DNA from: Halomarina salina
GTDB lineage: Archaea; Halobacteriota; Halobacteria; Halobacteriales; Haloarculaceae
Length of the DNA stretch: 64,000 nucleotides
NCBI RefSeq assembly: GCF_023074835.1
Contig: NZ_JALLGW010000004.1
Coordinates: forward strand, 62,001-126,000
Direction: 5' to 3'
The position numbers were made by a program, and so were the translations under genes. The stretch's first letter is position 1; every line of letters starts with the position of its first letter. The notes under the pieces were generated by a model that ran no database searches, had not been told where the DNA came from, and worked only from the letters and a program-made list of their open reading frames with translations. Below, piece after piece: positions 20,460 through 34,136 of the stretch.

Positions 20460-21401
20460 TCAGACGATATCGACCTCGATATGCTCGCGCAGTTCGGTCC
20501 AGCGCGCTCTGAGCGTGACTGTCGACACGTCGGCCGCCTTTGCGAGTTCCCCCTGCGTCACCTCTTCGACGCGCGCCTCGGCAACCAGATACAGCGCAGC
20601 GGCAGCCACCCCGGCGGGATGCTTCCCGTTGGTCAATCCACGCTCCTGGGCCTGCTCGGTGACGTGCGCCGCCTGTCGGCGCGTCCCATCTGAGAGCCCG
20701 ACCGTCGAGGCGAGTCCGGGCACGTACGCCCCCGGCGGGACGGGCACCGAGGGCAAGGAGAGTTCGCGATTCAGCACCGAATAGGCGTTCTCGACTCTGT
20801 TCTGCGACACGCGAGCGGGTGCGGCGACGTCACCACAGGTCCGCGGCAACCCGTTCGTCCGACAGATCGCGTACACCGCTCCGGCGGCCATCGCTTCGAC
20901 CGACCGTCCCGGAAGCAGGTCCTCGCGCTGGGCCCGGCGGAACAGGGCACACGCCTGCTCGACGATGCCGTCTGTGAGACCCATCGCGCCCGCGATTCGT
21001 CGCACTTCGCCCAGGCCGTGCGCGAGATTTCGGTCAGCCGTCGACTGCCATTTCGCGCGGGAGTGCTCCCGGCGGAGTCGCGAGAGCTGCCGCCGTTTCC
21101 GCCCTGGAAGAGTCTTTCCACGCCCATCGCGCTTTCGACCAATCTCAGTCGACAGCCCCCAGTCGTGCCGTCGCTCGGTAAGCGGTGCGCCGGTTCGTTC
21201 ACGCTCCTCTGTTTCGAACGGACGCCACTCCGGCCCACGGTCGACGCGCTGGCCGTCGAGGATGAGACCACAGTCCTCGCAGACAGTCTCTTGCGTAGTC
21301 GTCCGCACCACCCCATCGCACTCCGGACAACGTTGCGTGTACTGGGTGGTCGCTTCTCGATGCTCGTCGAAGCCCGTCTGGTAGATATCTCGAATCGACA
21401 T
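20460..21401 (-). CDS. tfb: Transcription initiation factor TFB, accessory copy
   Basis: 313 residues. The N-terminal zinc ribbon CPEC...CEDCG spans about residues 24-44, the conserved B-finger/linker follows (GPEWRPFETEER, GAPLTERRHDWGLSTEIG), and two cyclin-fold repeats cover about 115-205 and 215-305. TFB recruits RNA polymerase to TBP-bound promoters and reads the BRE. Haloarchaea keep several TFBs, and plasmid copies may serve their own gene sets. The promoter module before this gene recurs before neighbouring genes, so element-specific recognition is an attractive inference. Start chosen at MSIRDIYQTGFD. Confidence 0.93.
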   Translation of the reverse strand: MSIRDIYQTGFDEHREATTQYTQRCPECDGVVRTTTQETVCEDCGLILDGQRVDRGPEWRPFETEERERTGAPLTERRHDWGLSTEIGRKRDGRGKTLPGRKRRQLSRLRREHSRAKWQSTADRNLAHGLGEVRRIAGAMGLTDGIVEQACALFRRAQREDLLPGRSVEAMAAGAVYAICRTNGLPRTCGDVAAPARVSQNRVENAYSVLNRELSLPSVPVPPGAYVPGLASTVGLSDGTRRQAAHVTEQAQERGLTNGKHPAGVAAAALYLVAEARVEEVTQGELAKAADVSTVTLRARWTELREHIEVDIV

Positions 21402-21438
21402 TGCTGATGTCGCGAGGCACTGTTTAGAACGCCCCACA

Positions 21439-21462: not shown

Positions 21463-21517
21463 CCGCTGGCGTGGTGAGCGACGTAGATCGTGTTGGTAGT
21501 TGATACTTGTCACTGAC

Positions 21518-21565
21518 GGCGTGCATCGTTTGCCGCAAATGATAGACTCAGAGCGTGAGTGTATC
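21518..21565 (-). repeat. Island repeat 1, left terminal variant (inverted)
   Basis: Read on the minus strand: arm GATACACTC, spacer ACGCTCT, arm GAGTCTATC, then ATTTG and CGGCAAACGATGCACGCC. It matches repeat 16 at the other end over 48 bp, in opposite orientation. Confidence 0.92.
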
Positions 21566-21581
21566 AATTCGAGCTGGTAGA

Positions 21582-21992
21582 TTACGACTCGGCTGACGAA
21601 GTGCTCTCGGTGTTCTCACGCTGTCGCTGCTCGTCGGTTGGAACTTCGGTGAATAGATACCGCGTATCGTCCGTCTCTGCGTATATCTTCAGATTCTGCT
21701 CACGGCGCAGTCCATCGACTTCAAGCTCGGCACCTTCGGTGGAGAGGATGTGCTTCTCAGAGGGACCAGATGCGTTGGTCACCTCCGCCACGAGTTGGGT
21801 AGCATTGCCTAAGCTATCGACCGTCACTGACGCGGTACATGGAGGGTCCTGTAATTCAATGCAGTTGTACTCAGAACTCACCGCAATCATGTCCTCCGAG
21901 TCGTCTCCTGTCAGTCCAGACGCTCCCGAACAACCAGCGGTGGCGGCTGTCCCAATCAGGGCGAGGAGGGCGCGACGTTTCATACGGTCCAT
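21582..21992 (-). CDS. Tat-type lipoprotein, cassette 1
   Basis: 136 residues. The start MDRMKRRALLALIGTAATAGCSG has a twin-arginine pair, a hydrophobic stretch and a lipobox with Cys near residue 21, typical of haloarchaeal lipoproteins exported folded and anchored outside. The mature part is Thr/Ser/Asp/Glu-rich with a likely beta fold (ASVTVDSLGNATQLVAEVTN). No known domain is seen. Its 3' end lies 16 bp from repeat 1. A second ATG three codons later is possible. Confidence 0.78.
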   Translation of the reverse strand: MDRMKRRALLALIGTAATAGCSGASGLTGDDSEDMIAVSSEYNCIELQDPPCTASVTVDSLGNATQLVAEVTNASGPSEKHILSTEGAELEVDGLRREQNLKIYAETDDTRYLFTEVPTDEQRQRENTESTSSAES

Positions 21993-22027
21993 CAGCCAAC
22001 GAGTGGTAAATATCTTCTGTGAGGAAT

Positions 22028-22052
22028 GATACACTCGCGGCACGAGTCTATC
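22028..22052 (-). repeat. Island repeat 2, short right-core form (inverted)
   Basis: Minus strand: arm GATAGACTC, spacer GTGCCGC, arm GAGTGTATC, 25 bp. It is the right half of a full repeat alone, with a regenerated perfect outer arm. Confidence 0.9.
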
Positions 22053-22059
22053 AGCTGTA

Positions 22060-22209
22060 TCACACTGGAACAGCATGGAAAAAAGTCGGCGAACTGGTCG
22101 CGCCAGCAACCTCGATGGGGGCCGGTGGTCCACGACGACTCGGGGTGGCGATCGGAGGGTCAGTTCTGAACGGTGCCAGGCGTCGGCTCGGCAGAGGTGG
22201 ATATTGCAT
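22060..22209 (-). CDS. Possible 49-residue ORF in the gene-poor cassette 2
   Basis: An ATG-initiated frame of 49 residues (MQYPPLPSRRLAPF..., ending FFHAVPV) fills most of the interval between repeats 2 and 3 and stops 8 bp from repeat 2. It is Pro/Arg-rich, unlike its acidic neighbours, so it may be chance. The interval otherwise holds nothing recognisable. Confidence 0.25.
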   Translation of the reverse strand: MQYPPLPSRRLAPFRTDPPIATPSRRGPPAPIEVAGATSSPTFFHAVPV

Positions 22210-22254
22210 TGTCGAGAGCCGATTTTCTTTCACCGTAACTCGACTGATTCAACT

Positions 22255-22279
22255 GTTAGATGTGTGCCGCGAGTGTATC
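22255..22279 (+). repeat. Island repeat 3, short right-core form
   Basis: Arm GTTAGATGT, spacer GTGCCGC, arm GAGTGTATC. It lies in opposite orientation to repeat 2, so the 200-bp interval between them is bounded by inverted short sites. Confidence 0.9.
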
Positions 22280-22811
22280 ACTCTGCAGTCAGTGTCGCCC
22301 TCTGTGTTGTCTCGGGACCATCGGCTGAGCGCTCGGTGACGCGAATCGTCTCGACAGATGTCTCCGCCGTCGAGATGACGACTTCGTACAGACTGAAGGC
22401 CATGTCGCTGTAACACGTTCGTGGTGCAGGTTCCTTGGTTGTTGGCGCGATAACGAGTCGGAGGTCGTTCTCATCGGTCACGCTCAGTTCCTCAACACCG
22501 ATTTGCTTGCAACTGCTCGACCCATAGTACGTTCCACCGGAAACACTGATTGTGCCGCTGTCGTCCCGATAGGCGGTAATAGTGGGCGGAGCCTCGGGAG
22601 TCTGGTCGCTGCCTGAAGACGGCTCCCACTGAGAGAGACAGTAGGAGAGGTCGCCCCCATCCGTATCCGTCCGTGATGGTGAGCAACTCGGTGTCCCTGT
22701 TGGAGTCGCAGGACGAGGCTCGGCAGGTGAGTCTGAGCCGATAGAGTCGATGCACCCCGAGAGTCCAGCGATACCCGCTGAAATCGAGGCAAGGAGGGCA
22801 CGGCGGTTCAT
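22278..22811 (-). CDS. Tat-type lipoprotein, cassette 3
   Basis: 177 residues starting MNRRALLASISAGIAGLSGCID, with twin Arg, a hydrophobic core and a lipobox Cys at residue 20. A Ser/Pro/Thr-rich linker follows, then a domain with four Cys (SYCLSQW, SSSCKQIG, RTCYSD) that may form disulphides outside the cell. No known family. The TGA stop at 22278-22280 lies in the TGATACACTC of repeat 3, so the repeat supplies the stop codon. Confidence 0.78.
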   Translation of the reverse strand: MNRRALLASISAGIAGLSGCIDSIGSDSPAEPRPATPTGTPSCSPSRTDTDGGDLSYCLSQWEPSSGSDQTPEAPPTITAYRDDSGTISVSGGTYYGSSSCKQIGVEELSVTDENDLRLVIAPTTKEPAPRTCYSDMAFSLYEVVISTAETSVETIRVTERSADGPETTQRATLTAE

Positions 22812-22858
22812 ACACTGACCTTCTTTCTGTCCGATAAGTACTTTCGGGGTGGCCGAAT

Positions 22859-22921
22859 GTTAGACCCACGCTCTACGTCTCTCAAACGGGTCAAGTGAAA
22901 GATGCGTGCCGCGAGTGTAAC
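22859..22921 (+). repeat. Island repeat 4, full 63 bp
   Basis: Outer arms GTTAGACCC and GAGTGTAAC, spacers ACGCTCT and GTGCCGC, inner arms ACGTCTCTC and GAAAGATGC. Confidence 0.93.
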
Positions 22922-23003
22922 CTCAACGTTGGGGAGAAACACGCACCGAAAATCACGGTTACCAGCCAACGATTTATTGGCATTCGTATTGTCAGTTACA
23001 GGG

Positions 23004-23375
23004 ATGACTGATATCAAATCCCTCGCTGTCGGCGGTTTCGCTGGAGTGGCGGTTGCTGGTATCACCTACGTCGACGGAGTAGAGAGCCTGCAGCTGGTGG
23101 TGTGTCTTGGTCTTGTCTGGGCGTTCGCTGGCTGGTCGTTGACACGGAACCGTCGCCTGCTGAGAGACGCTGATGCGCTCCCCTCAGTGCTGTACGCACT
23201 CTTAGTGGTTGGTGTCCCATTCTTCGGAGTGCATGCCGACCTCGCGCTCAGCGGACTTCGGGAGCCATTGATGTTCCTCACGATGGGTGTGGCAGCGGCA
23301 GGTATCGGACTGGGCGCGGAGATAAGTGCCCCGACCGAACAGGAACGGACCACGACTGTCGCCACCGCAGACTGA
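23004..23375 (+). CDS. Small integral membrane protein, cassette 4
   Basis: 123 residues from the ATG at 23004; the frame extends back into repeat 4 but that part is not protein-like. Four hydrophobic segments are visible at about residues 7-24, 28-43, 60-76 and 88-105, separated by a basic loop (LTRNRRLLRDA). The tail is polar. No family is recognised. The 3' end is followed by repeat 5 after 18 bp. Confidence 0.72.
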   Translation: MTDIKSLAVGGFAGVAVAGITYVDGVESLQLVVCLGLVWAFAGWSLTRNRRLLRDADALPSVLYALLVVGVPFFGVHADLALSGLREPLMFLTMGVAAAGIGLGAEISAPTEQERTTTVATAD

Positions 23376-23393
23376 CGTCGAATACGTCGTAGC

Positions 23394-23456
23394 GACAGAC
23401 TCACGCTCTACGTTTCTCAATCGGGTTAAGTGATAGACGTGTGCCGCGAGTGTATC
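23394..23456 (+). repeat. Island repeat 5, full 63 bp
   Basis: Outer arms GACAGACTC and GAGTGTATC, spacers ACGCTCT and GTGCCGC, inner arms ACGTTTCTC and GATAGACGT. Confidence 0.93.
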
Positions 23457-23513
23457 AGTTCGACCAGTTTGCGTGGAGAACTCTTTTACAACTAGTAAGT
23501 GTCACGTTCTGAT

Positions 23514-24347
23514 ATGCGACGTGCCCTCCCCCTCGCAGTGGTCGCCCTCGTCTGTCTCGCTGGGTGTGGTGGCCTCGTCGGTGATGGCTCAAGTCCTGCC
23601 TCCACCTCGACCCCTGCCGACGTACCGACCGATTCTCCTCTGGTCAACCCGCCTCCCGGACTCTCCGAGGACGGCGTCACCGGCGTACAGACACTCGTCG
23701 ATGCCCACACCGACGCACTCGACAACCGGAGTTTCACCGAACGGAGGAGCGACCGACTGCTGGCCGCGAATGGCACGACCCTCGCGGCGACCAACAGTAC
23801 GGGGCGCGTGAACGACGCCCACGACCGAGCGGCGACGTCGTATCGACTCACCGGCATCCCGGCATCGTCCGAACGGTACGTCCCGTGGTTCGACCAGTCG
23901 GTGACTCGTCTCGACCAGTGGTACAACGGGAGCCAGTTCGTCCTTCGTGGCGACGGACCCAACGGAACGATGTACGCGTCCGTTCCGCCGCTCGGCACGC
24001 CGACGTGGGGCCCGACAACCGCTCTTGAGCGTTTCTACTACGCCGCCGAGTCGACGAGGGTGTCGAGCGAGAACGGCAGCATCGAGGTGCAACTGGACGG
24101 CGTCACGGGCAACTGGTCCATTGCGAGAGTCTCCGTTACCGTCACCGACGGGACGGTCACCGTGACGATGACCGATGACGGCCGCGTCACACAGTACCGA
24201 ACTGAGTTCACTGGAACCTTAGAGAGAGCACCGAACACGACCGTCGAGGGTGAACAGGTGGTCGAGTACACCGCTGTCGGTGAGACGACCGTCGACCGCC
24301 CGGAGTGGGTCGACAGTGCCCGGAATGCGACGACCACCATCAACTGA
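23514..24347 (+). CDS. DUF7537-like lipoprotein, cassette 5
   Basis: 277 residues from the ATG at 23514. The signal MRRALPLAVVALVCLAGCGG has its lipobox Cys at residue 18. A Ser/Thr/Pro linker and NPPPGLSEDGV follow, the layout I associate with a haloarchaeal lipoprotein family annotated as DUF7537. The mature domain contains WFDQSVTRLDQWYNGSQF and ends in TMTDDGRVTQYRTEFTG, resembling LolA/LppX-like folds, which is inference. It is paralogous to the next cassette gene. The TGA stop lies in repeat 6. Confidence 0.85.
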   Translation: MRRALPLAVVALVCLAGCGGLVGDGSSPASTSTPADVPTDSPLVNPPPGLSEDGVTGVQTLVDAHTDALDNRSFTERRSDRLLAANGTTLAATNSTGRVNDAHDRAATSYRLTGIPASSERYVPWFDQSVTRLDQWYNGSQFVLRGDGPNGTMYASVPPLGTPTWGPTTALERFYYAAESTRVSSENGSIEVQLDGVTGNWSIARVSVTVTDGTVTVTMTDDGRVTQYRTEFTGTLERAPNTTVEGEQVVEYTAVGETTVDRPEWVDSARNATTTIN

Positions 24348-24370
24348 TACACTCACGCTCTAAGTCTATC
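24346..24370 (+). repeat. Island repeat 6, short left-core form
   Basis: Arm GATACACTC, spacer ACGCTCT, arm AAGTCTATC, followed by ATTTG as in repeat 1. The right core is missing. The upstream gene's TGA overlaps its first two bases. Confidence 0.9.
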
Positions 24371-24478
24371 ATTTGACGGGTGCCTTGTTGGAGACAGGAG
24401 TGTCGATGATGCGAGAGAGGTAGCCACGCCACAATCGTTTGGCGAACTGATAAGAGTATAACCAGAGAATTGGTTCCT

Positions 24479-25291
24479 ATGCGCTCCGCCCTCCCGCTTG
24501 CCCTTCTTCTCATGGTCGCCCTCGCTGGCTGTGGGGGGTTCATGGGGAGCGCCCCCGCCAGTACATCAGACAGTCCGACCCCAGCTGCCGTGCCGACCGA
24601 CCATCCCCTTGCAAACCCGCCACCCGGTCTCACTGCCGGTGGTATTTCCGACCCGCAGACCCTCGCAGCAGCCCATCGAGACAGCCTCAACGCGTCGTCG
24701 TTCACTATTCAGACACACGTTCGTTGGCAGTACGCGAACGGAACGGAGGCACTCAACGTCACGACTCGGACGAACGTCGCAGCCACCCACCAGCAATGGC
24801 GGACCATCACTACGTCCCATCAGGTGCCGACCGAAACCGCGGTCGTCCAGTTCGATGAGTGGTACAATGGCTCTCACTCGTTCCAGCGGATACTGGTGAA
24901 CAACACGACGGTGAGAACGGGAGGACCGACGTTCAGCCCGAACCAATCCGTCCCAGACCGGCAACGTAGCCTCGCGCTTGTGTACGCCAGTGCCCGCGAC
25001 CCAACCATTCGGACAACGAACGGACTGATTCAAATACAGACGACGACCCCACCAACACGGACTGCCCTCACCGAATCGGGAGTCGAGAATGTGACCAACT
25101 GGACGTTGACTGCGACGGTGACCGATGACGGGCGCGTCACAGAGTATCGGGTGACCTACACAGGAACCGTCGCTGAACTACAGGGCACGAGAGTCACCGG
25201 AGAGACTGTCGTTTCGTTTGTCGTCCCTGCTGAGGCAGGTGTGGACCGCCCCGATTGGGTCGCGCGGAACACGACGGCCACAGCTGCGTAG
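24479..25291 (+). CDS. DUF7537-like lipoprotein, cassette 6 (paralogue of cassette 5)
   Basis: 270 residues. The signal MRSALPLALLLMVALAGCGG ends in a lipobox, followed by a linker, then NPPPGLTAGGISDPQTL, FDEWYNGSHSFQ and ATVTDDGRVTEYRVTYTGTV. All have counterparts in the previous cassette's protein, so the two cassettes carry diverged copies of one gene. Probably an envelope lipoprotein; function unknown. Repeat 7 starts 2 bp after the TAG stop. Confidence 0.85.
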   Translation: MRSALPLALLLMVALAGCGGFMGSAPASTSDSPTPAAVPTDHPLANPPPGLTAGGISDPQTLAAAHRDSLNASSFTIQTHVRWQYANGTEALNVTTRTNVAATHQQWRTITTSHQVPTETAVVQFDEWYNGSHSFQRILVNNTTVRTGGPTFSPNQSVPDRQRSLALVYASARDPTIRTTNGLIQIQTTTPPTRTALTESGVENVTNWTLTATVTDDGRVTEYRVTYTGTVAELQGTRVTGETVVSFVVPAEAGVDRPDWVARNTTATAA

Positions 25292-25293
25292 GT

Positions 25294-25356
25294 GAGAGAC
25301 TCACGCTCTGTATCTATCGAACACGCCGAACGAAGGACTCGTGCCGCGAGTGTATC
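25294..25356 (+). repeat. Island repeat 7, full 63 bp
   Basis: Outer arms GAGAGACTC and GAGTGTATC, spacers ACGCTCT and GTGCCGC, inner arms GTATCTATC and GAAGGACTC. Confidence 0.93.
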
Positions 25357-25417
25357 ATCCGCCAGTCCCCAAAGCGTACCGAAAGCTTATACGAAAACGT
25401 ATCAGTTTATCTGGGAC

Positions 25418-26113
25418 ATGGCTCCGTCATGGTCCCGACGCGGTATCCTCCGACTCAGTGGGGCAGGGGTTGCACTCCTTGCAGGCTGTGCGAGTGACCA
25501 ACCGGCTGGTAATCAGTCCTCCATCAACTCTCTACCTTCCGAAACGACGGCGGCGACACGTCCGCCCACATCACCGACGAGTACGCAGACCTCCGAACCC
25601 ACGGCATCATCAACCCCTGAGGAGGTTCCGGTCGTCACACCGCCAACGTGTGACAGCAGTCTCACTCGACTGGACCGCCCATCCGAGTCGGTCTCGTACA
25701 GTCAGGTCAACGGCTTCGAGTTGGCAGCGAGTGCCGATACGGTCGCACACGGCGAAGACATCGGGTTCACGCTCAAGTGGGTCGAATCGACTGGTGAAGA
25801 CCCGGAGACGGGCAACAACGAGATGTTCACCATCGACTGGGAGACCGAGAACGGGTGGCAGTCGATTTATCGAATTCGGGACCCACCGAATGCGGGCTGG
25901 ACCAGCCTCGCACACACTGCCCCATCGAACGAATCGCCACCAGTCACGTGGTTCGAGTGGTCATTTACCACGACCCAAGACGGGCTGGCTCACTCGACCC
26001 AGTTCAACGTGCCCTACGCCGTTTGTGAGCCGCTCTCCGCCGGAACGTATCGGTTTGTCTACTGGGGACTGGACGAAGCGGCACTCGGGTACAAATTCGA
26101 ACTCACCGAATAG
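25418..26113 (+). CDS. Tat-type lipoprotein, cassette 7
   Basis: 231 residues from MAPSWSRRGILRLSGAGVAL, with twin Arg and a lipobox (LLAGC) near residue 25. A long Ser/Thr/Pro linker follows. The globular domain (about residues 85-231) has an immunoglobulin-like pattern, with GEDIGFTLKWVES and AGTYRFVYWG near the end, reminiscent of BsuPI-like or other extracellular beta-sandwich domains; this is a weak resemblance. TATA-like CTTATACG is about 30 nt before the ATG. Confidence 0.78.
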   Translation: MAPSWSRRGILRLSGAGVALLAGCASDQPAGNQSSINSLPSETTAATRPPTSPTSTQTSEPTASSTPEEVPVVTPPTCDSSLTRLDRPSESVSYSQVNGFELAASADTVAHGEDIGFTLKWVESTGEDPETGNNEMFTIDWETENGWQSIYRIRDPPNAGWTSLAHTAPSNESPPVTWFEWSFTTTQDGLAHSTQFNVPYAVCEPLSAGTYRFVYWGLDEAALGYKFELTE

Positions 26114-26119
26114 ACCTGT

Positions 26120-26181
26120 GATACACCCACGCTCTACGTCTCTCGAACAGCCGAGCGAGCGACGCGTGCCGCGAGTGTATC
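26120..26181 (+). repeat. Island repeat 8, full 62 bp
   Basis: Outer arms GATACACCC and GAGTGTATC, spacers ACGCTCT and GTGCCGC, inner arms ACGTCTCTC and GAGCGACGC; the centre is 12 bp. Confidence 0.93.
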
Positions 26182-26242
26182 GGTCAGTTCACAAGATGTG
26201 TGTACCCAGAAAAGATATACTCGCCAACTCACCAGTGTCCGT

Positions 26243-26680
26243 ATGACTTCCCCTCTCTCCCGTCGGCGAGTATTGGCACTTGGTGCCACCGCGTCAGTGA
26301 GTGCTCTCGCAGGTTGTACTGACTATGTGTTCGGGGGACCACAGGAATATCTCCCCGTTGTCGTTGAGAACAACCACGACGAATTACACCGCATGATGTT
26401 TTCGGTAACCAGTGAATTCACTGGGGAGGTTGGGTCGTCAGAGTATTTTATCGACTGGAGACAGCTCAGCAGTGGTGAACAGTATCGGTTCGACGAAGGC
26501 GTTCCGTATACCGACTATAGCCCGATGCTCACGGCAATGGCGACGCTCGAAGACGGGACATTCGGGCGTGTCGAGTTCGAGTTCTACGAATTTGAGGAAC
26601 TCCGATTCCGAGTGACGAGCGAGAAAACACTTGACATTGTGCCAGTACCAGCGGCTGATGGACAGCAGACACCGAATTGA
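26243..26680 (+). CDS. Tat-type lipoprotein, cassette 8
   Basis: 145 residues starting MTSPLSRRRVLALGATASV, with three Arg, a hydrophobic stretch and a lipobox Cys in LAGCTD near residue 25. The mature domain begins LPVVVENNHDELHRMMFSV, a pattern seen in small haloarchaeal beta-sandwich envelope proteins. AGATATACT at 26212-26220 is about 26 nt before the ATG, so the cassette appears to carry its own leaderless promoter. Confidence 0.78.
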   Translation: MTSPLSRRRVLALGATASVSALAGCTDYVFGGPQEYLPVVVENNHDELHRMMFSVTSEFTGEVGSSEYFIDWRQLSSGEQYRFDEGVPYTDYSPMLTAMATLEDGTFGRVEFEFYEFEELRFRVTSEKTLDIVPVPAADGQQTPN

Positions 26681-26728
26681 GCTCGCTGCGTCCGGGCTCT
26701 CGGAATGTGCTGCCTACAATATTCCAAT

Positions 26729-26789
26729 GGTAGACTCACGCTCTGAGTCTCTCAAACGGACCGAGAGCGACGCGTGCCGCGTGTATATC
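26729..26789 (+). repeat. Island repeat 9, 61 bp
   Basis: Outer arms GGTAGACTC and GTGTATATC, spacers ACGCTCT and GTGCCGC, inner arms GAGTCTCTC and GAGCGACGC; the centre is 11 bp. Confidence 0.92.
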
Positions 26790-26803
26790 GTCTGCGACCC
26801 ATC

Positions 26804-27076
26804 TCACAGACTATCGTGAATAGAGGATTTCACCCGGACAACCATCGCTTGGCTTTCGGCGATTCCGCAACCACAGTTCGGGCAATGTGACGGCTTCGTA
26901 TCGTCTTGATAGCCGTACACACCGCCATCAAATCCGCACTCATCGCAATCGACACGGTACTCGCCCGGAACATCAAGGAGCCGTCTGATGACGTCCTCGT
27001 AGCTTTCTCCTCGTGCTTTCCGTGAGTGCAATTCGTCCGCCAGCTCGTTACTCGCTTGAATCGATGTCCGACCCAT
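26804..27076 (-). CDS. Antitoxin-like N-terminus fused to a zinc ribbon, cassette 9
   Basis: 90 residues. Residues 1-40 (TSIQASNELADELHSRKARGESYEDVIRRLL) match the VapB-like, ribbon-helix-helix style N-terminus common in haloarchaeal antitoxins. Residues 42-75 hold a zinc ribbon: CDECGFDGG, then HCPNCGCG. A DNA- or protein-binding regulator is likely. No toxin gene is adjacent, so it is either an orphan antitoxin or a stand-alone regulator. A palindrome 39-56 nt upstream suggests autoregulation. Confidence 0.8.
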   Translation of the reverse strand: MGRTSIQASNELADELHSRKARGESYEDVIRRLLDVPGEYRVDCDECGFDGGVYGYQDDTKPSHCPNCGCGIAESQAMVVRVKSSIHDSL

Positions 27077-27114
27077 GAGAGCTGCGACGACGGCTATTCG
27101 TAAGTATCTATGGC

Positions 27115-27132
27115 CACTATAGAACTATAGTG
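27115..27132 (-). promoter_or_regulatory. Operator-like palindrome
   Basis: CACTATAG and CTATAGTG form perfect 8-bp arms around an AA centre, 39-56 nt upstream of the antitoxin-like gene's ATG. A ribbon-helix-helix dimer pair could bind here. Confidence 0.6.
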
Positions 27133-27150
27133 ACAGAGCGTGGCTGTATC
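27132..27150 (-). repeat. Island repeat 10a, partial and inverted
   Basis: The minus strand reads GATACAGCCACGCTCTGTC, the outer arm and spacer of a left core. It abuts repeat 10b head to head. Confidence 0.75.
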
Positions 27151-27213
27151 GTTAGACCCACGCTCTGCGCCTCTCGAACGGGCTGAGTGAGCGACGCGTG
27201 CCGCGAGGCTAAC
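27151..27213 (+). repeat. Island repeat 10b, full 63 bp
   Basis: Outer arms GTTAGACCC and GAGGCTAAC, spacers ACGCTCT and GTGCCGC, inner arms GCGCCTCTC and GAGCGACGC. Confidence 0.93.
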
Positions 27214-27273
27214 AGTGAGCACTCAACTATCACGTCGAATGAATCTTGTACATTCGGAAATTTTAATGAATCA

Positions 27274-28677
27274 ATGACCCTCCGTATCCTACACTACGCC
27301 GACGTTGAGAACGCCTATGACGATGCCAGCGGAATTGGACGGCTCGCTGGCCTCATCAAAGAGTTGCGTGATGAGGAGACCATCATCTGTGGCTCCGGTG
27401 ATAATACCGGACCCGGCGTCCTCTCGGTCGTCACCAAAGGACGGCAGGCACTCGATTTCTTCGAGGCAGTCGACCCCGATGCTGAGACTTTCGGCAACCA
27501 CGACTTCGACCACGGTCCCGAACACCTACTGAAGCTCGTCGACGAATCCCCTCAGCCATGGGTGTGTGCGAATGCGTTTCGAAACGGCGACCGATTCGCG
27601 GGTACGCAGGGTGCCGTCCCATGGACCATCATAGAGGCAGGCAACACACGAGTGGGCATCATCGGGGTTGCACATCCCGAGACTGTCGGCATCAACCCGT
27701 ATGCGGGTGATGTCGAGTTTACCGACCCCGTCCCAGCCGTTGAGGAAGGGATTAGCACCCTCAGTGGGCGTGGTGTCGACCGACTCATCGTCCTGTCACA
27801 CCTCGGCGACGATACCGACCTCGCCCGAGCGGTTGATGCTGACGTCATTCTCGGTGGGCACGACCACGACCGACTTGTCGACTGTGTCGCTGGGACGCTC
27901 GTCTGTCGGCCGGGTGGCAACGGTCGATTCGTACTCGAAGTGTCGTTCGAGGGAGAAGCCCCGACAGCTACACATCACTCGGTAGCTGATGGTCCACCGG
28001 ATACCGAGGTAGCAACCGCGCTCCGCAATCGAGCGGAGGCAGCAGGACTCATGGATGTCGTCGGCACTGCCGAGACGCCAGTGGTGTGCGACATGATGGC
28101 CTCGAAACGGGGTGAGAGCAGATTGGGCAATCTCGTCACTGACGCCTTTCGGACTACAGCAGACGCGGACATTGCGGTGTTCGCCGCGGGTGGGTTCCGC
28201 CGCCGACCGCCGTTTGAAGGGACCGTCACAGCGTTCGACCTCGTAGGTGTCATGCCCTTCGACCGAGAGTTGGTCTCACTACGTGTTGATGGCGAAACGC
28301 TGTGTGATGTCTTTCGACAGCTCGCGCTCGCTCACTTCGACGACGCGCCTCACTGGTTCTTCGGCCACGTCAGTGGAGCGAGTATAGTGTGGGATGATGT
28401 GGCGAACGAACTTCGGTCCGCCCACGTGAACGGAGGTCCCATCGAATCGACCAAGCAGTACGATATCGCGACGACCGAGTTCCTCGTTGAGAACGACACG
28501 CTGTTCCCTGCATTCAGGCCGGACGATGTCGTCGAAGCGTATGGTCTCGTGTACGAGGTACTCGTGGAGTATGTCCGTACAGTAGGTCTCAACCCACGGC
28601 TGGAGGGGCGGATTCAACGACCGACCCTCGACCCGGAAACAGTTCCCGACCGGGACTGGCCATTCAGCCCCGAGTGA
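27274..28677 (+). CDS. 5'-nucleotidase/metallophosphatase family protein, cassette 10
   Basis: 467 residues from the ATG at 27274. The metallophosphatase domain shows LHYADVENAYDD near residue 4 (the usual D-x-H is altered to ADVEN), GSGDNTGPG, GNHDFDHG near 82, VLSHLGDD near 182 and GGHDHD near 200. The C-terminal 5'-nucleotidase domain has RGESRLGNLVTDAFR near 285. Relatives dephosphorylate nucleotides outside the cell, but no signal peptide is visible here. The altered first metal motif should be checked before assuming activity. The TGA stop lies at the start of repeat 11. Confidence 0.88.
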   Translation: MTLRILHYADVENAYDDASGIGRLAGLIKELRDEETIICGSGDNTGPGVLSVVTKGRQALDFFEAVDPDAETFGNHDFDHGPEHLLKLVDESPQPWVCANAFRNGDRFAGTQGAVPWTIIEAGNTRVGIIGVAHPETVGINPYAGDVEFTDPVPAVEEGISTLSGRGVDRLIVLSHLGDDTDLARAVDADVILGGHDHDRLVDCVAGTLVCRPGGNGRFVLEVSFEGEAPTATHHSVADGPPDTEVATALRNRAEAAGLMDVVGTAETPVVCDMMASKRGESRLGNLVTDAFRTTADADIAVFAAGGFRRRPPFEGTVTAFDLVGVMPFDRELVSLRVDGETLCDVFRQLALAHFDDAPHWFFGHVSGASIVWDDVANELRSAHVNGGPIESTKQYDIATTEFLVENDTLFPAFRPDDVVEAYGLVYEVLVEYVRTVGLNPRLEGRIQRPTLDPETVPDRDWPFSPE

Positions 28678-28737
28678 TTCACCACGTTCCCAGTCTATCG
28701 AACGGGCCGAGTGAGCGACGCGTGCGGTGGGGCCTAC
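28676..28737 (+). repeat. Island repeat 11, degenerate
   Basis: The centre and right inner arm (GAACGGGCCGAGT, GAGCGACGC) match the consensus exactly. The outer arms (GATTCACC, GGGGCCTAC) and spacers (ACGTTCC, GTGCGGT) have drifted. Confidence 0.85.
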
Positions 28738-28777
28738 GGCACGTAGCACTAAACACAGCCCAGCTGATAAGTCTGGT

Positions 28778-29362
28778 ATGGACGCGCTCTCCCTCTACGA
28801 CGAATTGCAAGCTATCGCTCGTGAAGGGCTCTACTACGCCGACGACCCGTACGATGAGGAACGGTACGAGCGAATCCTCGAACTCGCCTCAGAGGGGTAT
28901 GGCGAGGCGCTCGAATTGCCAGCAAATCACGTTCAGGAAGAACTCACCGACGGCCTCGCTGTCCTGACCCCGTTTGTCGGGGTGAAGTGCGGCATCTTCG
29001 ACGAACAGGGTCGGGCACTGATGATGAAGCGAGCCGACACGGGGGAGTGGGATATGCCGGGTGGAGCCGTGGACACGATGGAGTCGCCAGACGAGACCGC
29101 CGTCCGCGAGACGAGTGAAGAAACTGCTCTCGACGTTCGTGTCATCCAGCATGTCGGCGTCTACTACGTCCCCCCGAACAAGGCCGACCCCCATTCGAGT
29201 GTCATTCTTACGTATCTCTGCGAGCGAACTGGTGGCGACCTCACACTGTCCCATGAGGGGACTCAGCTGGAGTACGTAGACCCGACAACAAACGACAGAC
29301 CATGGAGTCTGAGCACCGATGAGTGGGCGCTGGACCTTCGCTCAGCAAATGCCGGGCGATAG
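28778..29362 (+). CDS. NUDIX hydrolase with N-terminal extension, cassette 11
   Basis: 194 residues. Residues 1-60 form the helical N-terminal domain found in ADP-ribose or CDP-choline-type NUDIX proteins (LYDELQAIAREGLYY). The NUDIX box lies at about 92-114: GGAVDTMESPDE, then VRETSEETALDV, with REUxEE intact but Ala in place of the final Gly. It would cleave a nucleoside diphosphate linked to another moiety. ATG at 28778 gives the natural domain start. The TAG stop is inside repeat 12. Confidence 0.9.
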   Translation: MDALSLYDELQAIAREGLYYADDPYDEERYERILELASEGYGEALELPANHVQEELTDGLAVLTPFVGVKCGIFDEQGRALMMKRADTGEWDMPGGAVDTMESPDETAVRETSEETALDVRVIQHVGVYYVPPNKADPHSSVILTYLCERTGGDLTLSHEGTQLEYVDPTTNDRPWSLSTDEWALDLRSANAGR

Positions 29363-29420
29363 ACCCACGCTCTACATCTCTCAAACGGACCGAGCGAGAG
29401 ATGCGTACCGTGTAGGAAAC
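29358..29420 (+). repeat. Island repeat 12, 63 bp with drifted right core
   Basis: Arm GATAGACCC, spacer ACGCTCT, inner arms ACATCTCTC and GAGAGATGC, then a changed spacer GTACCGT and arm GTAGGAAAC. Confidence 0.88.
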
Positions 29421-29492
29421 GAAGGGCTGTGCTCAGTCACCGTCTCGTAATGGCTGGAAGCACTCAATGAGTCTTCTGTGAGTGCCTTGAGG

Positions 29493-29687
29493 TCAGCTTC
29501 GCACAAGCCGGTAGGTGACTCCCACTGCGACGACAGCGGCGACGAGGCCGACTATGAACGCAACCGGTTGATTGGCGAACGACTCTCCCCATCGCCAGTC
29601 GAGGAAGATGCGCCCACCAATAGCCACGATGACGAAGGCAATTCCGACTACTGTCCCGAGCGTCGAAGTGTCGCGTCGGAGGACCAT
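29493..29687 (-). CDS. Small two-helix membrane protein, cassette 12
   Basis: 64 residues from MVLRRDTSTLG. Two hydrophobic segments lie at about residues 11-25 and 38-57, joined by a Trp-rich loop (LDWRWGESFANQ). No family is recognised. It is divergent from the regulator at 29801, with 113 bp between starts and no repeat between, so it may belong to the same cassette and be controlled by that regulator. Confidence 0.6.
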   Translation of the reverse strand: MVLRRDTSTLGTVVGIAFVIVAIGGRIFLDWRWGESFANQPVAFIVGLVAAVVAVGVTYRLVRS

Positions 29688-29800
29688 GCGAGTGTCACTA
29701 CAGTGGCCCATATTAACAACCCGGGGTCACGATTCCACGGCGTGGAACTGTGTCGTGGCGACTATATCTCGTCCGATAGATTGCTCTGGTGACGCGTGAA

Positions 29801-30154
29801 ATGGGCACTGAGGACGAAGACGTTCGTGACATCGCGTCTCTCCTCGCAGATGAATGTACACAGACGATACTCACCGAAACCGTTACTGAGCCGATGTCAG
29901 CGAGGGAACTGAGCGACGTCTGCGACGTCTCCCCCCAGACGATTTATCGCCGATTGGACGGGCTTCTCGACCACGGCCTCGTAGAAGCGGAGACGAAACC
30001 AGACGCCGAGGGGCATCACTACAAGGTGTATACAGCGACGCTCGACCGGTTCGTTGTCGAGCTTACTTCGGAAGGACTTGAGCTCTCTATTTCACGCCGA
30101 AATCAGATGGCAGACCGGTTCACACGATTCGTCGACGAGGTTCGGGACCGATGA
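29801..30154 (+). CDS. Winged-helix transcriptional regulator, cassette 12
   Basis: 117 residues. A winged helix-turn-helix of ArsR-like type spans about residues 8-70 (SARELSDVCDVSPQTIYRRL, then GLLDHGLVEAE). The C-terminal helix (MADRFTRFVDEVRD) likely dimerises. The stop overlaps the next gene's start by 4 nt. I recall this HTH plus small membrane protein pair as a common haloarchaeal arrangement, with the membrane protein annotated as DUF7521. It may sense a membrane or envelope state. Confidence 0.82.
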   Translation: MGTEDEDVRDIASLLADECTQTILTETVTEPMSARELSDVCDVSPQTIYRRLDGLLDHGLVEAETKPDAEGHHYKVYTATLDRFVVELTSEGLELSISRRNQMADRFTRFVDEVRDR

Positions 30155-30459
30155 CTCCACTCCAACTTACTCCAGCAGTTCAATCGCACATCGCACTCGT
30201 CCTGACGGTCACCTCCACAGTACTCGGGCTCGCCGTCGGGTACATCGCGTTACGCGGCTACTGGCGGAGTCGCAAACGCCCAATGTTGTTCATCGCGCTC
30301 GGGTTCTTCCTCGTATTCTGGACTCCGGTGTTACTTCTCATCGGTCCATATCTCGTCCCACTCGTTGGGGGGTTCGTCTATGGAATGCTCGGTGAGGTGA
30401 GTCAGATTCTCGGGCTCTTGAGCATCCTCTATGGACTGCGGATGCCACCCTCCCGATAA
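30151..30459 (+). CDS. DUF7521-like membrane protein, cassette 12
   Basis: 102 residues with three hydrophobic helices at about residues 12-34, 46-64 and 68-92, and a basic loop YWRSRKRPM after the first. It is translationally coupled to the winged-helix gene by an ATGA overlap, so the two probably work together. The molecular role is unknown. Repeat 13 follows 18 bp after the stop. Confidence 0.78.
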   Translation: MTPLQLTPAVQSHIALVLTVTSTVLGLAVGYIALRGYWRSRKRPMLFIALGFFLVFWTPVLLLIGPYLVPLVGGFVYGMLGEVSQILGLLSILYGLRMPPSR

Positions 30460-30477
30460 TGCCGACAGTTCTCGACT

Positions 30478-30509
30478 GATAGCCCCACGCTCTACGTCTC
30501 TCGTTCAGG
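30478..30509 (+). repeat. Island repeat 13, left half only
   Basis: Arm GATAGCCCC, spacer ACGCTCT, arm ACGTCTCTC, then the centre breaks off. The stop of the converging methyltransferase gene follows 2 bp later. Confidence 0.85.
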
Positions 30510-30511
30510 TT

Positions 30512-31288
30512 CTACGCTTTCTGTCCGACGAACAGTCCCATCGACTTCTGAATCTCCAATGGGCCGTCGTCGAGGTGGTCATCGGTTCGGTCGGCAAAGT
30601 CGGCGACCTGTTGACCGTCTACCTTCTGAAGCGAGGCGGCATATGCGACAAGCGGTTCGAGCTCCGGGACACGGAGGAACGTATCACGTTCGTACCTGTG
30701 GACAGTGTCGAAGTGGTGGGATAGCTGTTCCCCACCGTTTTCGAGCGTGAACGCTCCCTTGTCGGATGGCTCGTGGTCAGTCGTCGCCATCAGGAGCGCC
30801 CGGAGTTCACGCATGTTCGCCTCACCGTTCGTCGTTGCGAACAGTCGGCCTCCGGGCCGTAACACGCGGTGCATCTCCGAGAGTGCGACGTCACGGTCCG
30901 TGTGGTAGAGCATGTGGTTCGCGACGACAGTGTCAACGCTTTCGTCCGCGTACGGGAGGGACTCTGCGGGTGCCACGCCGACGGTCGCTTCGAGACCTGC
31001 ATCGAGGAGCGACTCACGTGCGTCAGCGGCCATTCCCTCCGAGAAATCGGTTACCAGAAGCCTCCAGTCGTCAGGAATTCGGTCGGCGTTGTCCTGCCAT
31101 AGCTTCGCGGTGCCACAGCCCACCTCGAACAGGTCGGCATCAGCTGGCACGGGGTCGTAGTGGTCGAACACCCACGGCCACCAGTCCCGGTCGGCGACCT
31201 CGTACGTCTCGTGAAGATGAATGCGTGCGCTCAGGTTCGCCCCATCTGCATACTGCTCGGCTAGTACAGCACGGTCACTCTCGTTCAT
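30512..31288 (-). CDS. SAM-dependent methyltransferase, cassette 13
   Basis: 258 residues from MNESDRAVLAEQY. The class I fold is shown by motif I FEVGCGTAKLW near residue 54, VTDFSEGMAADAR near 77, ADESVDTVVANHMLYH near 112 and the post-motif LRPGGRLFATT near 146. The substrate is unknown; relatives methylate small metabolites. Its 3' end abuts the truncated repeat 13, as if the right half of that site was lost when the cassette was inserted or trimmed. Confidence 0.9.
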   Translation of the reverse strand: MNESDRAVLAEQYADGANLSARIHLHETYEVADRDWWPWVFDHYDPVPADADLFEVGCGTAKLWQDNADRIPDDWRLLVTDFSEGMAADARESLLDAGLEATVGVAPAESLPYADESVDTVVANHMLYHTDRDVALSEMHRVLRPGGRLFATTNGEANMRELRALLMATTDHEPSDKGAFTLENGGEQLSHHFDTVHRYERDTFLRVPELEPLVAYAASLQKVDGQQVADFADRTDDHLDDGPLEIQKSMGLFVGQKA

Positions 31289-31331
31289 GATTGCTCTCTC
31301 GTCTACCGTGTGAAAAATGGACTCCCGAGCT

Positions 31332-31394
31332 GATACACTCACGCTCTAAGTCTATCGAATGGGTGGAGTGAGCGATGCGTGCGACGAGTCTAAC
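31332..31394 (+). repeat. Island repeat 14, full 63 bp
   Basis: Outer arms GATACACTC and GAGTCTAAC, spacers ACGCTCT and GTGCGAC, inner arms AAGTCTATC and GAGCGATGC. Confidence 0.93.
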
Positions 31395-31438
31395 GGTTGA
31401 CCGCAACACTTGTCAGTCATTACTACTCACCAGTGCTC

Positions 31439-31897
31439 ATGTCCTCCTCTTCTCTCGCTCTCGCCGTCTACCTCCAGAGTTCGTCGTTCACTGGCTACCA
31501 GTCGGTAGAGACAGGCGTTCTCGTCGCGGCACTCGGTGCTGGACTCTTCAGCCTCGTTACGACGGCGCTGTTCGTCCTGCCACAACTTGAAATCGAGAAG
31601 GGAATCGTAGGAGCCGTCGCCGTGGCTGCATTCTTTGCATTGGTTCTCTTCGGCTTCGCGTTCGTCCCGGCAGTGCTGTTCTGTACGATGGGTCTCATGA
31701 CACCACTCGCGCTGTGGCTGGTGGTTGCAGGCGGATACACCATCCACGGATGGAGTCTTCCCGGAGAAGGTCAGACGTTGGTTGGATTCGTCGTCGTGGT
31801 TCCAGTAATACTCGCTGTCCTCCTCGTCGCTGGTGGCATCGAATACGGCGTCCGAGTGTGGCTGAACCTTGCCCCACCGTCAGTGCCGTTCCTCTGA
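31439..31897 (+). CDS. Integral membrane protein, cassette 14
   Basis: 152 residues from the ATG at 31439; a TTG at 31397 is possible but lies right after the repeat. Four to five hydrophobic segments are visible at about residues 3-14, 27-45, 55-75, 78-100 and 118-138. Charged residues are very few, as in small multi-spanning proteins. No known family. The TGA stop is 1 bp before repeat 15. Confidence 0.7.
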   Translation: MSSSSLALAVYLQSSSFTGYQSVETGVLVAALGAGLFSLVTTALFVLPQLEIEKGIVGAVAVAAFFALVLFGFAFVPAVLFCTMGLMTPLALWLVVAGGYTIHGWSLPGEGQTLVGFVVVVPVILAVLLVAGGIEYGVRVWLNLAPPSVPFL

Positions 31898-31898
31898 C

Positions 31899-31961
31899 GA
31901 TACACTCACGCTCTGAGTGTATCGAACGGCCCAAGTGAGCGACGCGTGCCGCGAGTGTATC
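31899..31961 (+). repeat. Island repeat 15, full 63 bp
   Basis: Outer arms GATACACTC and GAGTGTATC, spacers ACGCTCT and GTGCCGC, inner arms GAGTGTATC and GAGCGACGC. The left core is a near-perfect inverted repeat. Confidence 0.94.
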
Positions 31962-32006
31962 AGTCCAATTTCGAGTTAGCAGAAGATACTTGCTCGCCAA
32001 TAGGTA

Positions 32007-32546
32007 ATGTTCCGTATGAAACGCCGTGCCCTCCTTGCCCTCTCTGGGGCTGCTCTCAGCAGCCTCGCGGGCTGTTCCGACGCAATCCCATTCGGTTCTG
32101 ATGGGGCAGCAGATGCGACGACCGTCGAGCAACCGGGCTGTTCATCGTATAAGGTCGACCAGATAGTGAAACCCTCCGAGGAGACGTTGGGGGTCAATTA
32201 CGAGGTGTCTGGGGAGCTTTCTGGCGATACCGACAGCTGGGAGGAGACGATTTCGCTGCAAAACACTGGGCGCTCACCAGTAGTCCTCACTGGCGACGGA
32301 GTTTTGTTCGAGACGGCCCGGAAGTACACGTTCAGCGAGTTCACGCTTATCCCGAGCGCGGAGGTCACGTTCATCACGTTCGGTGACCCGTCAGCATCAA
32401 CCGCGACATCTTGTCCCAAATACGACTATGTACGTCGGATAGACCTTGAGGAACCTCTGTTACAGGACCAAACAGCACGCGTCGCGTTCTTAGAACTGGA
32501 TGGAGGGCACTTGTTTGACACAGAGATTGAATTGCCCAGTTCGTAA
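32007..32546 (+). CDS. Tat-type lipoprotein with a lamin-tail-like domain, cassette 15
   Basis: 179 residues starting MFRMKRRALLALSGAALSSLAGCSD, with twin Arg and the lipobox Cys at residue 23. The signal region is close, in DNA as well, to that of the cassette 1 lipoprotein (MKRRALLAL). The C-terminal part has the strand pattern of lamin-tail domains (SLQNTGRSPVVLTGDGV, then FTLIPSAEVTFITFG), which haloarchaea often export; the match is suggestive only. It is the last gene before the right terminal repeat. Confidence 0.76.
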   Translation: MFRMKRRALLALSGAALSSLAGCSDAIPFGSDGAADATTVEQPGCSSYKVDQIVKPSEETLGVNYEVSGELSGDTDSWEETISLQNTGRSPVVLTGDGVLFETARKYTFSEFTLIPSAEVTFITFGDPSASTATSCPKYDYVRRIDLEEPLLQDQTARVAFLELDGGHLFDTEIELPSS

Positions 32547-32591
32547 TGGTGCACACCCTCTACTCTGACTTGTAGTCGGGTCGGCCTATTC

Positions 32592-32639
32592 GATAGACTC
32601 ACGCTCTGTGTCTAACAAAACCGGCAAACGATGCACGCC
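32592..32639 (+). repeat. Island repeat 16, right terminal variant
   Basis: Arm GATAGACTC, spacer ACGCTCT, arm GTGTCTAAC, then CGGCAAACGATGCACGCC. It pairs with repeat 1 in inverted orientation; the similarity extends a few bases outward (CAGTGA). Confidence 0.92.
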
Positions 32640-32731
32640 ACCAGTGATCAGTGCGAAAGCCCGGCGGCCGTGGCCGCCCGGACCGTGGAGGTGGGTGGGG
32701 CGGTGGCTCGCGAAAAAAGAGCGCGACCGGC

Positions 32732-33583: not shown

Positions 33584-34136
33584 TGCAGACTCTGAAGGCG
33601 CTCTCTGAGCGTCCGACACTGCGGTGCTACTACATCGCAGTTTTCCATACACGACGACCCGACCAGTCACGACTGCGCGCTCGCTCGCGCCTTCGCGAGC
33701 GCCCCCGGGCGCGAGCGAGCGCGCTCTGCGGTGACCGGCACCCCAGAGCACCGCGCGGCGTCCGCCCGGAGCGAGCGGCCAGCGGAGTATGCGTCGCGGG
33801 GGGAGCGCAGTGACCCCCCGACGGATACCCGCTGGCGTCGAGGGCACACGCCCGGAATGGTGAGCGACGAACGGAGCGAACCACATGCCCGGACTGGTTG
33901 GTCGCGAGCGAACCGCGGGCCCGAGCACAGCGAGGGACCGCAGCGGAGGGCGGCACGCGCCGAGTGGGGCGGGCCGAACTGCGACTCACCGGACACCTCT
34001 CCACCTCGCCAGGGGGTCGTGAGGCTCTATCAGCAGGCGTTGGTCATCGAACCGAATCCAAACCAAATCTGAACCTGACTCGCACCGTCTAGACGAACGT
34101 AGTGAAATTCTCTCTGGGCGGAAAGTATTAGTAGAT
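33584..34136. other. GC-rich noncoding region
   Basis: No gene is supported; the open frames are Arg/Ala/Pro-rich and lack haloarchaeal acidity. It contains a 17-bp perfect hairpin at 33675-33724 and short phrases (CACACGCCCGGAATGG at 33847-33862 and GGGCGGGCCG near 33965) that recur at 45602-45672. This suggests a repeated noncoding module of the element. Confidence 0.55.
33675..33724. repeat. Perfect 17-bp inverted repeat (hairpin)
   Basis: Arms GCGCGCTCGCTCGCGCC and GGCGCGAGCGAGCGCGC are separated by 16 bp. It lies about 90 bp upstream of the RPA-like gene. It could be a terminator or a protein-binding hairpin. Confidence 0.75.

Follow-up and report, generated by a model that had tools for sequence, protein, structure and literature searches.

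A two-site gene-cassette system in Halomarina and Halobium, probably served by a phiCh1-Int1-type recombinase

Between about positions 21,518 and 32,640 of the stretch of Halomarina salina DNA analyzed here (64,000 nucleotides, hereafter the window), short repeats stand between the genes, and the question raised by this island is whether its genes are mobile cassettes and, if so, what moves them. A preliminary description, made from the sequence of the window alone, had counted seventeen genes and seventeen copies or part-copies of one palindromic repeat family, seen nowhere else in the window, and had read the island as gene-cassette capture by a system separate from known integrons. A repeat or part of one is present at 17/17 of its positions, that at 28676 being degenerate and that at 27132 a weak inverted A box, and the cassette genes number about 16 rather than 17. 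The repeat, however, is not one palindrome but two heterospecific core sites of 27 nt each, A (10-nt arm, ACGCTCT, 10-nt arm) and B (10-nt arm, GTGCCGC, 10-nt arm), both near-symmetric, with 7-nt spacers and in direct orientation, which alternate in the order B-gene-A.

A PWM scan placed 14 A boxes and 11 B boxes in the window (most true boxes score ~30–44 bits), and shuffled sequence gave zero matches at the threshold used. Within the window, the repeats are intergenic and restricted to the island, with just two weak matches outside it (12–14 bits); their supposed confinement holds that far and fails genome-wide, where ~160 boxes occur in this Halomarina species in ~20 arrays or single units. 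Across 19 loci, 1 of 165 box midpoints fell inside predicted coding sequence, where 105 would be expected (two of the stretches overlap, so that three boxes enter the count twice). A comes after B in 101 of 111 Halomarina units and in 21 of 23 Halobium units, and the junctions have fixed lengths (25, 38 and 81; 94 in Halobium).

At the left outer end of the island, an RE tail (TTTGCGGCAAACGATGCACGCC.., 21505..21539, minus strand), with a 61-nt inverted match to the right end (82% complementary), lies outward of a box A (21540..21566, minus strand, PWM 43 bits); the same tail is common to other array ends. Cassette 1, a small lipoprotein-like gene (21582..21992, minus strand) with a similar cassette in locus L063, is followed by the inner box B of the left array (22027..22053, minus strand, 40 bits). 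The right array starts at its own inner box B (22254..22280, plus strand, 37 bits) with a gene for a hypothetical protein of 177 aa (22278..22811, minus strand). Beyond it, on the plus strand unless stated otherwise and with boxes called by PWM, an A-38-B junction (22858..22922; A 22858, B 22896) leads to a gene for a 123-aa hypothetical protein (23004..23375), and another (23393..23457; A 23393, B 23431) to a DUF7537 lipoprotein-like gene (23514..24347), whose stop codon, TGA, is also the start of the next, solo box A (24345..24371, 44 bits). A paralogous DUF7537 gene (24479..25291) is followed by an A-38-B junction (25293..25357; A 25293, B 25331), a lipoprotein-like gene of 231 aa (25418..26113), an A-37-B junction (26119..26182; A 26119, B 26156), a gene for a hypothetical protein of 135 aa (26273..26680) and an A-36-B junction (26728..26790; A 26728, B 26764). 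Then come a gene for a small protein with an antitoxin-like N terminus (26804..27076, minus strand; sub-threshold Pfam matches), the weak inverted box A (27125..27151, minus strand, 21 bits), an A-38-B junction (27150..27214; A 27150, B 27188), a 5′-nucleotidase or metallophosphatase gene (27274..28677) and, past the degenerate junction (28676..28738; weak B at 28712, 12.8 bits), a NUDIX hydrolase gene (28778..29362). A box A with a degenerate B side (29357..29383) precedes a segment (29493..30459) holding a small membrane gene (minus strand), an HTH regulator and a DUF7521 gene (both plus strand), after which a solo box A (30477..30503) adjoins a class I methyltransferase gene (30512..31288, minus strand). 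Two further A-38-B junctions (31331..31395, A 31331, B 31369; and 31898..31962, A 31898, B 31936) enclose a gene for a 152-aa hypothetical protein (31439..31897), and a lipoprotein-like gene of 179 aa (32007..32546) leads to the right outer end, a box A with RE tail (32591..32640). From this box A onward, the flank is common to H. oriensis arrays (90% and 85% identity). Since box A and the common tail face outward on both sides, the island ends look like terminal inverted repeats.

The centre of the island (22054..22253, minus strand) holds two outward-facing LE motifs and a 5′ remnant of a phiCh1-Int1-type recombinase gene (about 45 codons, broken frame), and matches the LE and int 5′ end of locus L084 of Halomarina rubra (78% over 198 nt). 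The window's island has lost its recombinase gene. One array in the same genome has an intact tyrosine recombinase, and in three Halomarina genomes and in Halobium the recombinase sits between divergent LE-B ends, the B sites flanking its gene in inverted orientation. The LE-B that adjoins the recombinase resembles a promoter plus a site by sequence likeness only, and a promoter role for the LE motif (TTTCTTTC..TGATTCAGC) is inferred.

The predicted recombinase shares 44% identity with the phiCh1 Int1 locus product and 44–48% with phiCh1 Int1-type recombinases, keeps the invariant R, K, H, R, W and Y intact and has haloarchaeal plasmid and virus recombinases as its nearest relatives; on these comparisons, it belongs to the phiCh1 Int1 group and not to IntI. 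NCBIfam gave no integron-integrase match for it, only a weak one to XerA (27 bits vs a cut-off of 220). No close recombinase was found in the array-bearing genomes G001, G003 and G006 (G003 being only 73% complete), and no arrays were found near the plasmid relatives of the recombinase in Halorientalis, Salinirubellus and Halorubrum. Other recombinases are present in the window's genome and could act on the sites.

Arrays of B-gene-A units occur in the genera Halomarina and Halobium. A repeat model from Halomarina, run on 392 genomes of the order, recovered arrays in Halomarina only; those of Halobium score weakly with this model and were found through the recombinase. IMG/VR was searched for viral carriage and yielded no A pattern, and nine scattered single B-core matches there were taken as chance without closer inspection. 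A pattern search of eight genomes for pre-formed empty platforms (LE-dyad-RE, LE-RE) found none.

The same cassette, with its ends in boxes, was found at different loci (L048/L060 at 99.1%, L050/L051 at 94% and L063/L171 at 93%). At the L064 locus, the window's genome and H. rubra (L172) hold different cassettes and H. oriensis (L173) is empty, and the L063 locus likewise carries a different cassette or none between related species. Flanks with as much as 99.92% identity across 7.5 kb give way to unrelated cargo from box A. H. rubra and Halobium salinum are members of different families with unlike arms, and both hold one cassette (93.5% identity across 1,562 nt) that is bounded by A and B and whose outer arms match each host's own type; the arms of Halobium differ from those of Halomarina, with spacers and LE kept. 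Over 33 boundaries, mean mismatches were 2.76/10 in the outer arm, 0.21/7 in the spacer and 1.42/10 in the inner arm (the pairs are not independent, and only boxes of one type were paired). The mapped switches fall at A-A and B-B spacers, although type-matched pairing could not list A-B exchanges; inner arms travel with the cargo, and the outer arms, like LE/RE, differ from locus to locus or from host to host.

Cassette movement with breakpoints at the boxes is well supported by these genome comparisons, which also establish, at the level of sequence, the two sites, their alternation, the sharing of one cassette by two families and the co-location of the recombinase with arrays. The checks proposed in the preliminary description turned out in favor of its cassette reading: a repeat model found arrays (in Halomarina), a tyrosine recombinase co-occurs with them and lies inside arrays, the same flanks carry unlike cargo, and species differ from one another by single units whose ends lie at boxes. 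It had also held that repeats occurring genome-wide after unrelated genes would refute this reading; they do occur genome-wide, yet this does not refute cassettes, because the boxes form B-gene-A units with exchanged contents.

We propose, with a probability of roughly 0.78, a haloarchaeal mobile gene-cassette system in which one phiCh1-Int1-type recombinase uses two heterospecific sites, the window's island being a recombinase-less array. A unit would be one gene or a small operon with B on one side and A on the other, and in some arrays the recombinase gene would occupy the centre, with a B site facing outward on either side of it. The enzyme would most likely bind the arms and exchange strands in the 7-nt spacer, from which we infer that A pairs with A and B with B. 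A single exchange would insert or excise a unit, and arrays would be built in this way; a double exchange (B with B and A with A) would swap the gene at a locus, as a natural recombinase-mediated cassette exchange. The recombinase as the mover, the like-with-like pairing and a circular intermediate are inferred, as is the part given to LE. This simple scheme leaves unexplained some lone units in which A rather than B adjoins LE and the unit common to L053/L054, which starts with RE in place of B.

Each unit could instead be a small non-autonomous transposon whose terminal inverted repeats consist of LE plus arm; the recombinase, or another transposase, would carry it in trans to new sites, and arrays would arise from insertion beside existing copies. 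Such elements would fit the Halobium units, each flanked by LE in inverted orientation, the lone units at scattered chromosomal loci and the lack of LE and RE at empty loci. We consider this unlikely, because inner arms accompany the cargo whereas the outer arms and LE/RE depend on the locus or host, different cargo occupies the same locus, junction lengths are fixed and the units examined showed no transposase gene; in the L064/L172 pair, cargo already seems to have been replaced at a fixed locus without new LE or RE.

Homologous recombination between dispersed intergenic repeats of the REP or terminator kind, which would shuffle neighboring genes without a dedicated recombinase, would accord with boxes that are short intergenic palindromes found genome-wide and with the absence of a recombinase gene from many arrays. 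It is nonetheless very improbable: imperfect 27-nt matches are short for such recombination, switch points cluster at the 7-nt spacers, a recombinase is found at array centres and one cassette is common to two families with different arms. Scattered repeats with stable neighbors, as expected of REP or terminator elements, are not what is seen; the boxes form clusters of B-gene-A units instead of following random genes, and the same locus holds differing cargo.

A true integron, in which an integrase of the IntI type acts on attC sites folded as single strands, is disfavored and hardly tenable: despite one gene and site per unit, an adjoining tyrosine recombinase with an attI-like neighbor (LE-B) and some arms reading GTTAGAC/GTCTAAC in keeping with GTTRRRY/RYYYAAC, there is no integron-integrase match, the box polarity is opposite, breakpoints lie in the 7-nt spacers, and the likeness of the arms is probably chance because the GTT/AAC letters are not kept in the window's species or in Halobium. 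An attC-like RNA or ssDNA hairpin is likewise not supported, as two alignments (short and long junctions) gave no covarying hairpin and single repeat copies often fold no better than shuffles.

The proposed two-site cassette system nevertheless resembles several known ones, and no description of such an archaeal system was found in the literature searched. Integrons have been found in archaeal MAGs by IntI/attC criteria, with haloarchaea unmentioned (Ghaly et al. 2022, PMC9668308). Like integrons, the haloarchaeal arrays consist of single-gene cassettes punctuated by recombination sites beside a tyrosine recombinase, also occur without the recombinase, carry varied cargo often of unknown function, and gain, lose and share cassettes at site boundaries. 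They differ in that their recombinase is not of the IntI type, their sites are not attC and a hairpin in them is unsupported, each unit has two heterospecific sites, and arrays run in both directions from a centre; the function is integron-like yet outside the integron family, as the preliminary description had held.

In the dif modules of Acinetobacter Rep_3 plasmids, genes between small tyrosine-recombinase core sites are shuffled, exchange being seen between sites with identical spacers; these dif-like sites have distinct XerC/XerD halves, a 6-bp spacer and alternating orientation, and use the host XerC/XerD (PMC13141974). The haloarchaeal genes also lie between such small core sites, but these are of two near-symmetric types in direct orientation, each with a 7-nt spacer of its own and served by a dedicated in-array recombinase in the proposed scheme, and they do not qualify as XerCD dif modules. 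The phiCh1/phiH1 Int1 inverts one segment to switch tail fibres (PMC6210493). It shares with the arrays the recombinase family and a recombinase gene between inverted repeats. We know of no cassette arrays or A/B boxes in phiCh1 or phiH1. Engineered recombinase-mediated cassette exchange places a gene between two heterospecific sites that share their arms and differ in the spacer, and double exchange swaps the gene. The haloarchaeal genes are likewise flanked by two heterospecific sites; the engineered version is a laboratory design, whereas the haloarchaeal pattern is natural, arrayed and genome-wide.

Integrons are the main known platform for single-gene capture and, to our knowledge, archaeal integrons are known only from MAGs, by bacterial criteria. 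We lean, with more reserve, towards an archaeal counterpart of the integron that evolved independently, in which a phiCh1-Int1-type recombinase would serve as a gene-capture machine with two heterospecific sites per gene; cassettes could then be inserted or excised, or replace each other one for one, both inside a genome and across haloarchaeal families. If true, an unrelated haloarchaeal system, present in named type strains, would mean that cassette capture has more than one evolutionary origin. Some of the exchange of small accessory genes among haloarchaea would then be explained, high-salt genetic tools would gain a natural two-site exchange system, and how haloarchaea swap single genes across families would become testable in laboratory strains.

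A position-weight scan of the window confirmed the repeat family of the preliminary description and its confinement, as far as the window goes, to 21,518 to about 32,640. The repeat was real, but it resolved not into one element but into two 27-nt dyads, whose arms are common to both and whose fixed 7-nt middle differs: box A (TGATAGACTC-ACGCTCT-GAGTCTATCA) and box B (TGATAGACGC-GTGCCGC-GAGTGTATCA). Conservation was highest in the spacers (about 1.8 bits per position, compared to 1.0-1.3 in the arms), and arm complementarity was well above that of shuffled controls. Most boxes scored about 30-44 bits, and shuffled sequence gave 0 matches at the threshold used. Units are ordered B-gene-A, and where they meet, the A-to-B offset is 36-38 nt in the island and 25, 38, or 81 nt in the rest of the genus Halomarina. 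A conserved motif, LE (TTTCTTTC, about 18 nt, TGATTCAGC), for which a promoter role is inferred, lies directly outside B at left array ends, and a tail, RE (ntaCCGGCAATCGATGCA), lies directly outside A at right array ends.

The anatomy demonstrated here is not limited to the island. A sequence model of the junction detected clusters of the repeat throughout the 4.46-Mb genome, for the most part with a single orientation within each cluster. Nearly all of twenty regions retrieved followed the same B/A grammar; they range from single units (e.g., the loci L060, 0.3 kb, and L064, 2.1 kb) up to some 20 consecutive units at C2:602-616 kb. Only 1 of 165 box midpoints fell inside a coding sequence, where 105 were expected; the genes in this count were our own codon-usage calls, and three boxes, in two overlapping stretches, were counted twice. 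The first TGA of box A serves as the stop codon of several genes.

The window island consists of two arrays that diverge from a 200-nt centre, and its inverted end repeats arise because this arrangement makes both ends A-RE. Its cassette genes are, as first described, mostly without relation to one another and placed on both strands; they include lipoproteins, NUDIX, 5'-nucleotidase, methyltransferase, HTH regulator, and small membrane proteins. DUF7537 paralogues lie side by side at 23514-25291 with a solo box A between them, as if one unit had been duplicated and then diverged. A transcription factor B (TFB) gene (20460-21437) is directly adjacent to the island on its left side, and a sequence with 71% identity to it adjoins the L054 array. 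Beyond the right end, positions 33670-33780 are GC-rich with overlapping palindromes (CGCGAGCGCCCCCGGGCGCGAGCGAGCGCG).

One of the ten Phage_integrase matches in the genome lies inside an array. The gene for this 285-aa protein, P0001, is precisely bracketed by two outward-facing LE-B ends of the array L051, and relatives occupy the same position in arrays of H. oriensis (L079, L080) and H. rubra (L084), so that the anticipated co-occurrence of a tyrosine recombinase with the arrays is directly observed, while catalysis by this enzyme is inferred. Further copies or fragments were found in H. oriensis, H. rubra, and a third genome (G004). In addition to a Cys motif, P0001 has the tyrosine-recombinase active site (R105, K172, H231, R234, W257, and Y266, assigned by us from invariant columns). 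Its identity to recombinases of haloarchaeal plasmids and viruses, among them the one encoded at the phiCh1 int1 locus, is 44-48%. Int1 is flanked by inverted repeats and brings about tail-fibre switching (PMC6210493). The island's 200-nt centre shares 78% identity over 198 nt with LE plus the 5' end of the array recombinase genes and still encodes the protein start, with the frame broken; judged from this sequence remnant, the island formerly had this recombinase, which was lost through an internal deletion. At the centre of two other arrays, an Orc1/Cdc6-like gene replaces the recombinase between two outward-facing LE-B ends (L087:4154-5152 in H. rubra and L093:4734-5731 in genome G001); a link to replication or plasmid origins is possible.

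Among known systems, the Acinetobacter dif modules show a resemblance, but these alternate the orientation of one asymmetric Xer site, whereas the haloarchaeal sites are two, near-symmetric, spacer-distinct, and in direct orientation (PMC13141974). The haloarchaeal system works like an integron, yet it passes neither of the tests that define one, IntI and attC, and P0001 is not an IntI. Many arms in the H. oriensis and H. rubra junctions (A3 alignment) read GTTAGAC/GTCTAAC and match the integron core consensus GTTRRRY/RYYYAAC, but with opposite polarity; this likeness is probably due to chance, since other arms of the same family do not match. Archaeal integrons have been described from MAGs under IntI/attC criteria in a paper that makes no mention of haloarchaea (PMC9668308), and a review of archaeal tyrosine recombinases treats integrons only in general terms (PMC8371274). 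No integron-like array or cassette system in haloarchaea was described in the literature searched, which excluded subscription papers.

Comparison between loci shows, at the level of sequence, that cassettes move and that the breaks fall at the boxes. Pairs of loci have a cassette in common, with the similarity breaking off inside the boxes: L048 and L060 (99.1%), L050 and L051 (94%), and L063 and a lone unit of H. oriensis, L171 (93%); several Halobium cassettes are likewise present at more than one locus. L050 and L051 have different bases at 6 of the 10 left-arm positions, and their match starts with base 1 of the A spacer. Over 33 boundaries, the mean mismatches were 2.76/10 in the outer arm, 1.42/10 in the inner arm, and 0.21/7 in the spacer (one-sided Wilcoxon P = 0.0002; pairs not independent). 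Two expectations of the preliminary description, different cargo between the same sites and gain or loss of single units between relatives, were met: the chromosomal L064 locus holds one cassette in the genome studied here, a different one in H. rubra, and none in H. oriensis, where a 19-bp gap separates the matched flanks; at the L063 locus, two species have no unit and a third has a different one. Shared flanks also give way to other cargo at box A. A 7.5-kb flank common to H. oriensis (L079:6519-14000) and H. rubra (L084:458-7944) is 99.92% identical up to box A, followed by unrelated cassettes, and the window's right flank is 85-90% identical, from box A outward, to those of two H. oriensis arrays with other cargo inside. 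The flanks themselves may have been exchanged between replicons at A sites.

The simplest reading is that one tyrosine recombinase acts, with an overlap of 7 bp, on two heterospecific sites. Since tyrosine recombinases need matching overlaps, each site would recombine with its own kind, a pairing rule that is inferred. A unit freed by A x A or B x B exchange, as an inferred circle, would carry one A and one B; on reinsertion, a single exchange would give a longer array, and a double exchange would substitute the gene that B and A enclose. This two-site scheme accounts for why A and B alternate, why cargo is swapped at one locus, why the breaks in both spacers are sharp, and why outer arms and LE/RE stay at the locus. 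It does not explain LE joined to A in lone units, units without B, the origin of new platforms, or array-bearing genomes without a close recombinase. The lone units (L060, L061, L063, L064, L049:13751, and L172 of H. rubra) have A beside LE (A-GCTGAATCA) and B beside RE, the reverse of the arrays' arrangement. The unit common to L053:2729-3629 and L054:1410-2310 (93%) starts with A-RE and lacks a B box, so that movement of a cassette between two A sites is apparently possible.

The proposed search of haloarchaeal genomes with a repeat model did find arrays, but among 392 genomes drawn from the order, the Halomarina model had matches in Halomarina alone (5 genomes; 1 of 95 genera). The A pattern was without a match in IMG/VR. 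Halobium salinum, from another family, encodes a recombinase 71-76% identical and has its own version of the system, in which the spacers and the type of LE are unchanged, the arms are different (TCCTAGAGAC), and the A-to-B offset in arrays is 93-95 nt (23 pattern matches vs 0 with a reversed control). A 1.56-kb cassette carrying a serine-hydrolase gene (Pfam Beta-lactamase) is 93.5% identical between H. rubra and this species, and its Halobium copy has outer arms of the Halobium type and an inner arm beside A of the Halomarina type. Arms that vary with the recombinase around constant spacers are the pattern expected if the enzyme binds the arms and exchanges strands in the spacers.
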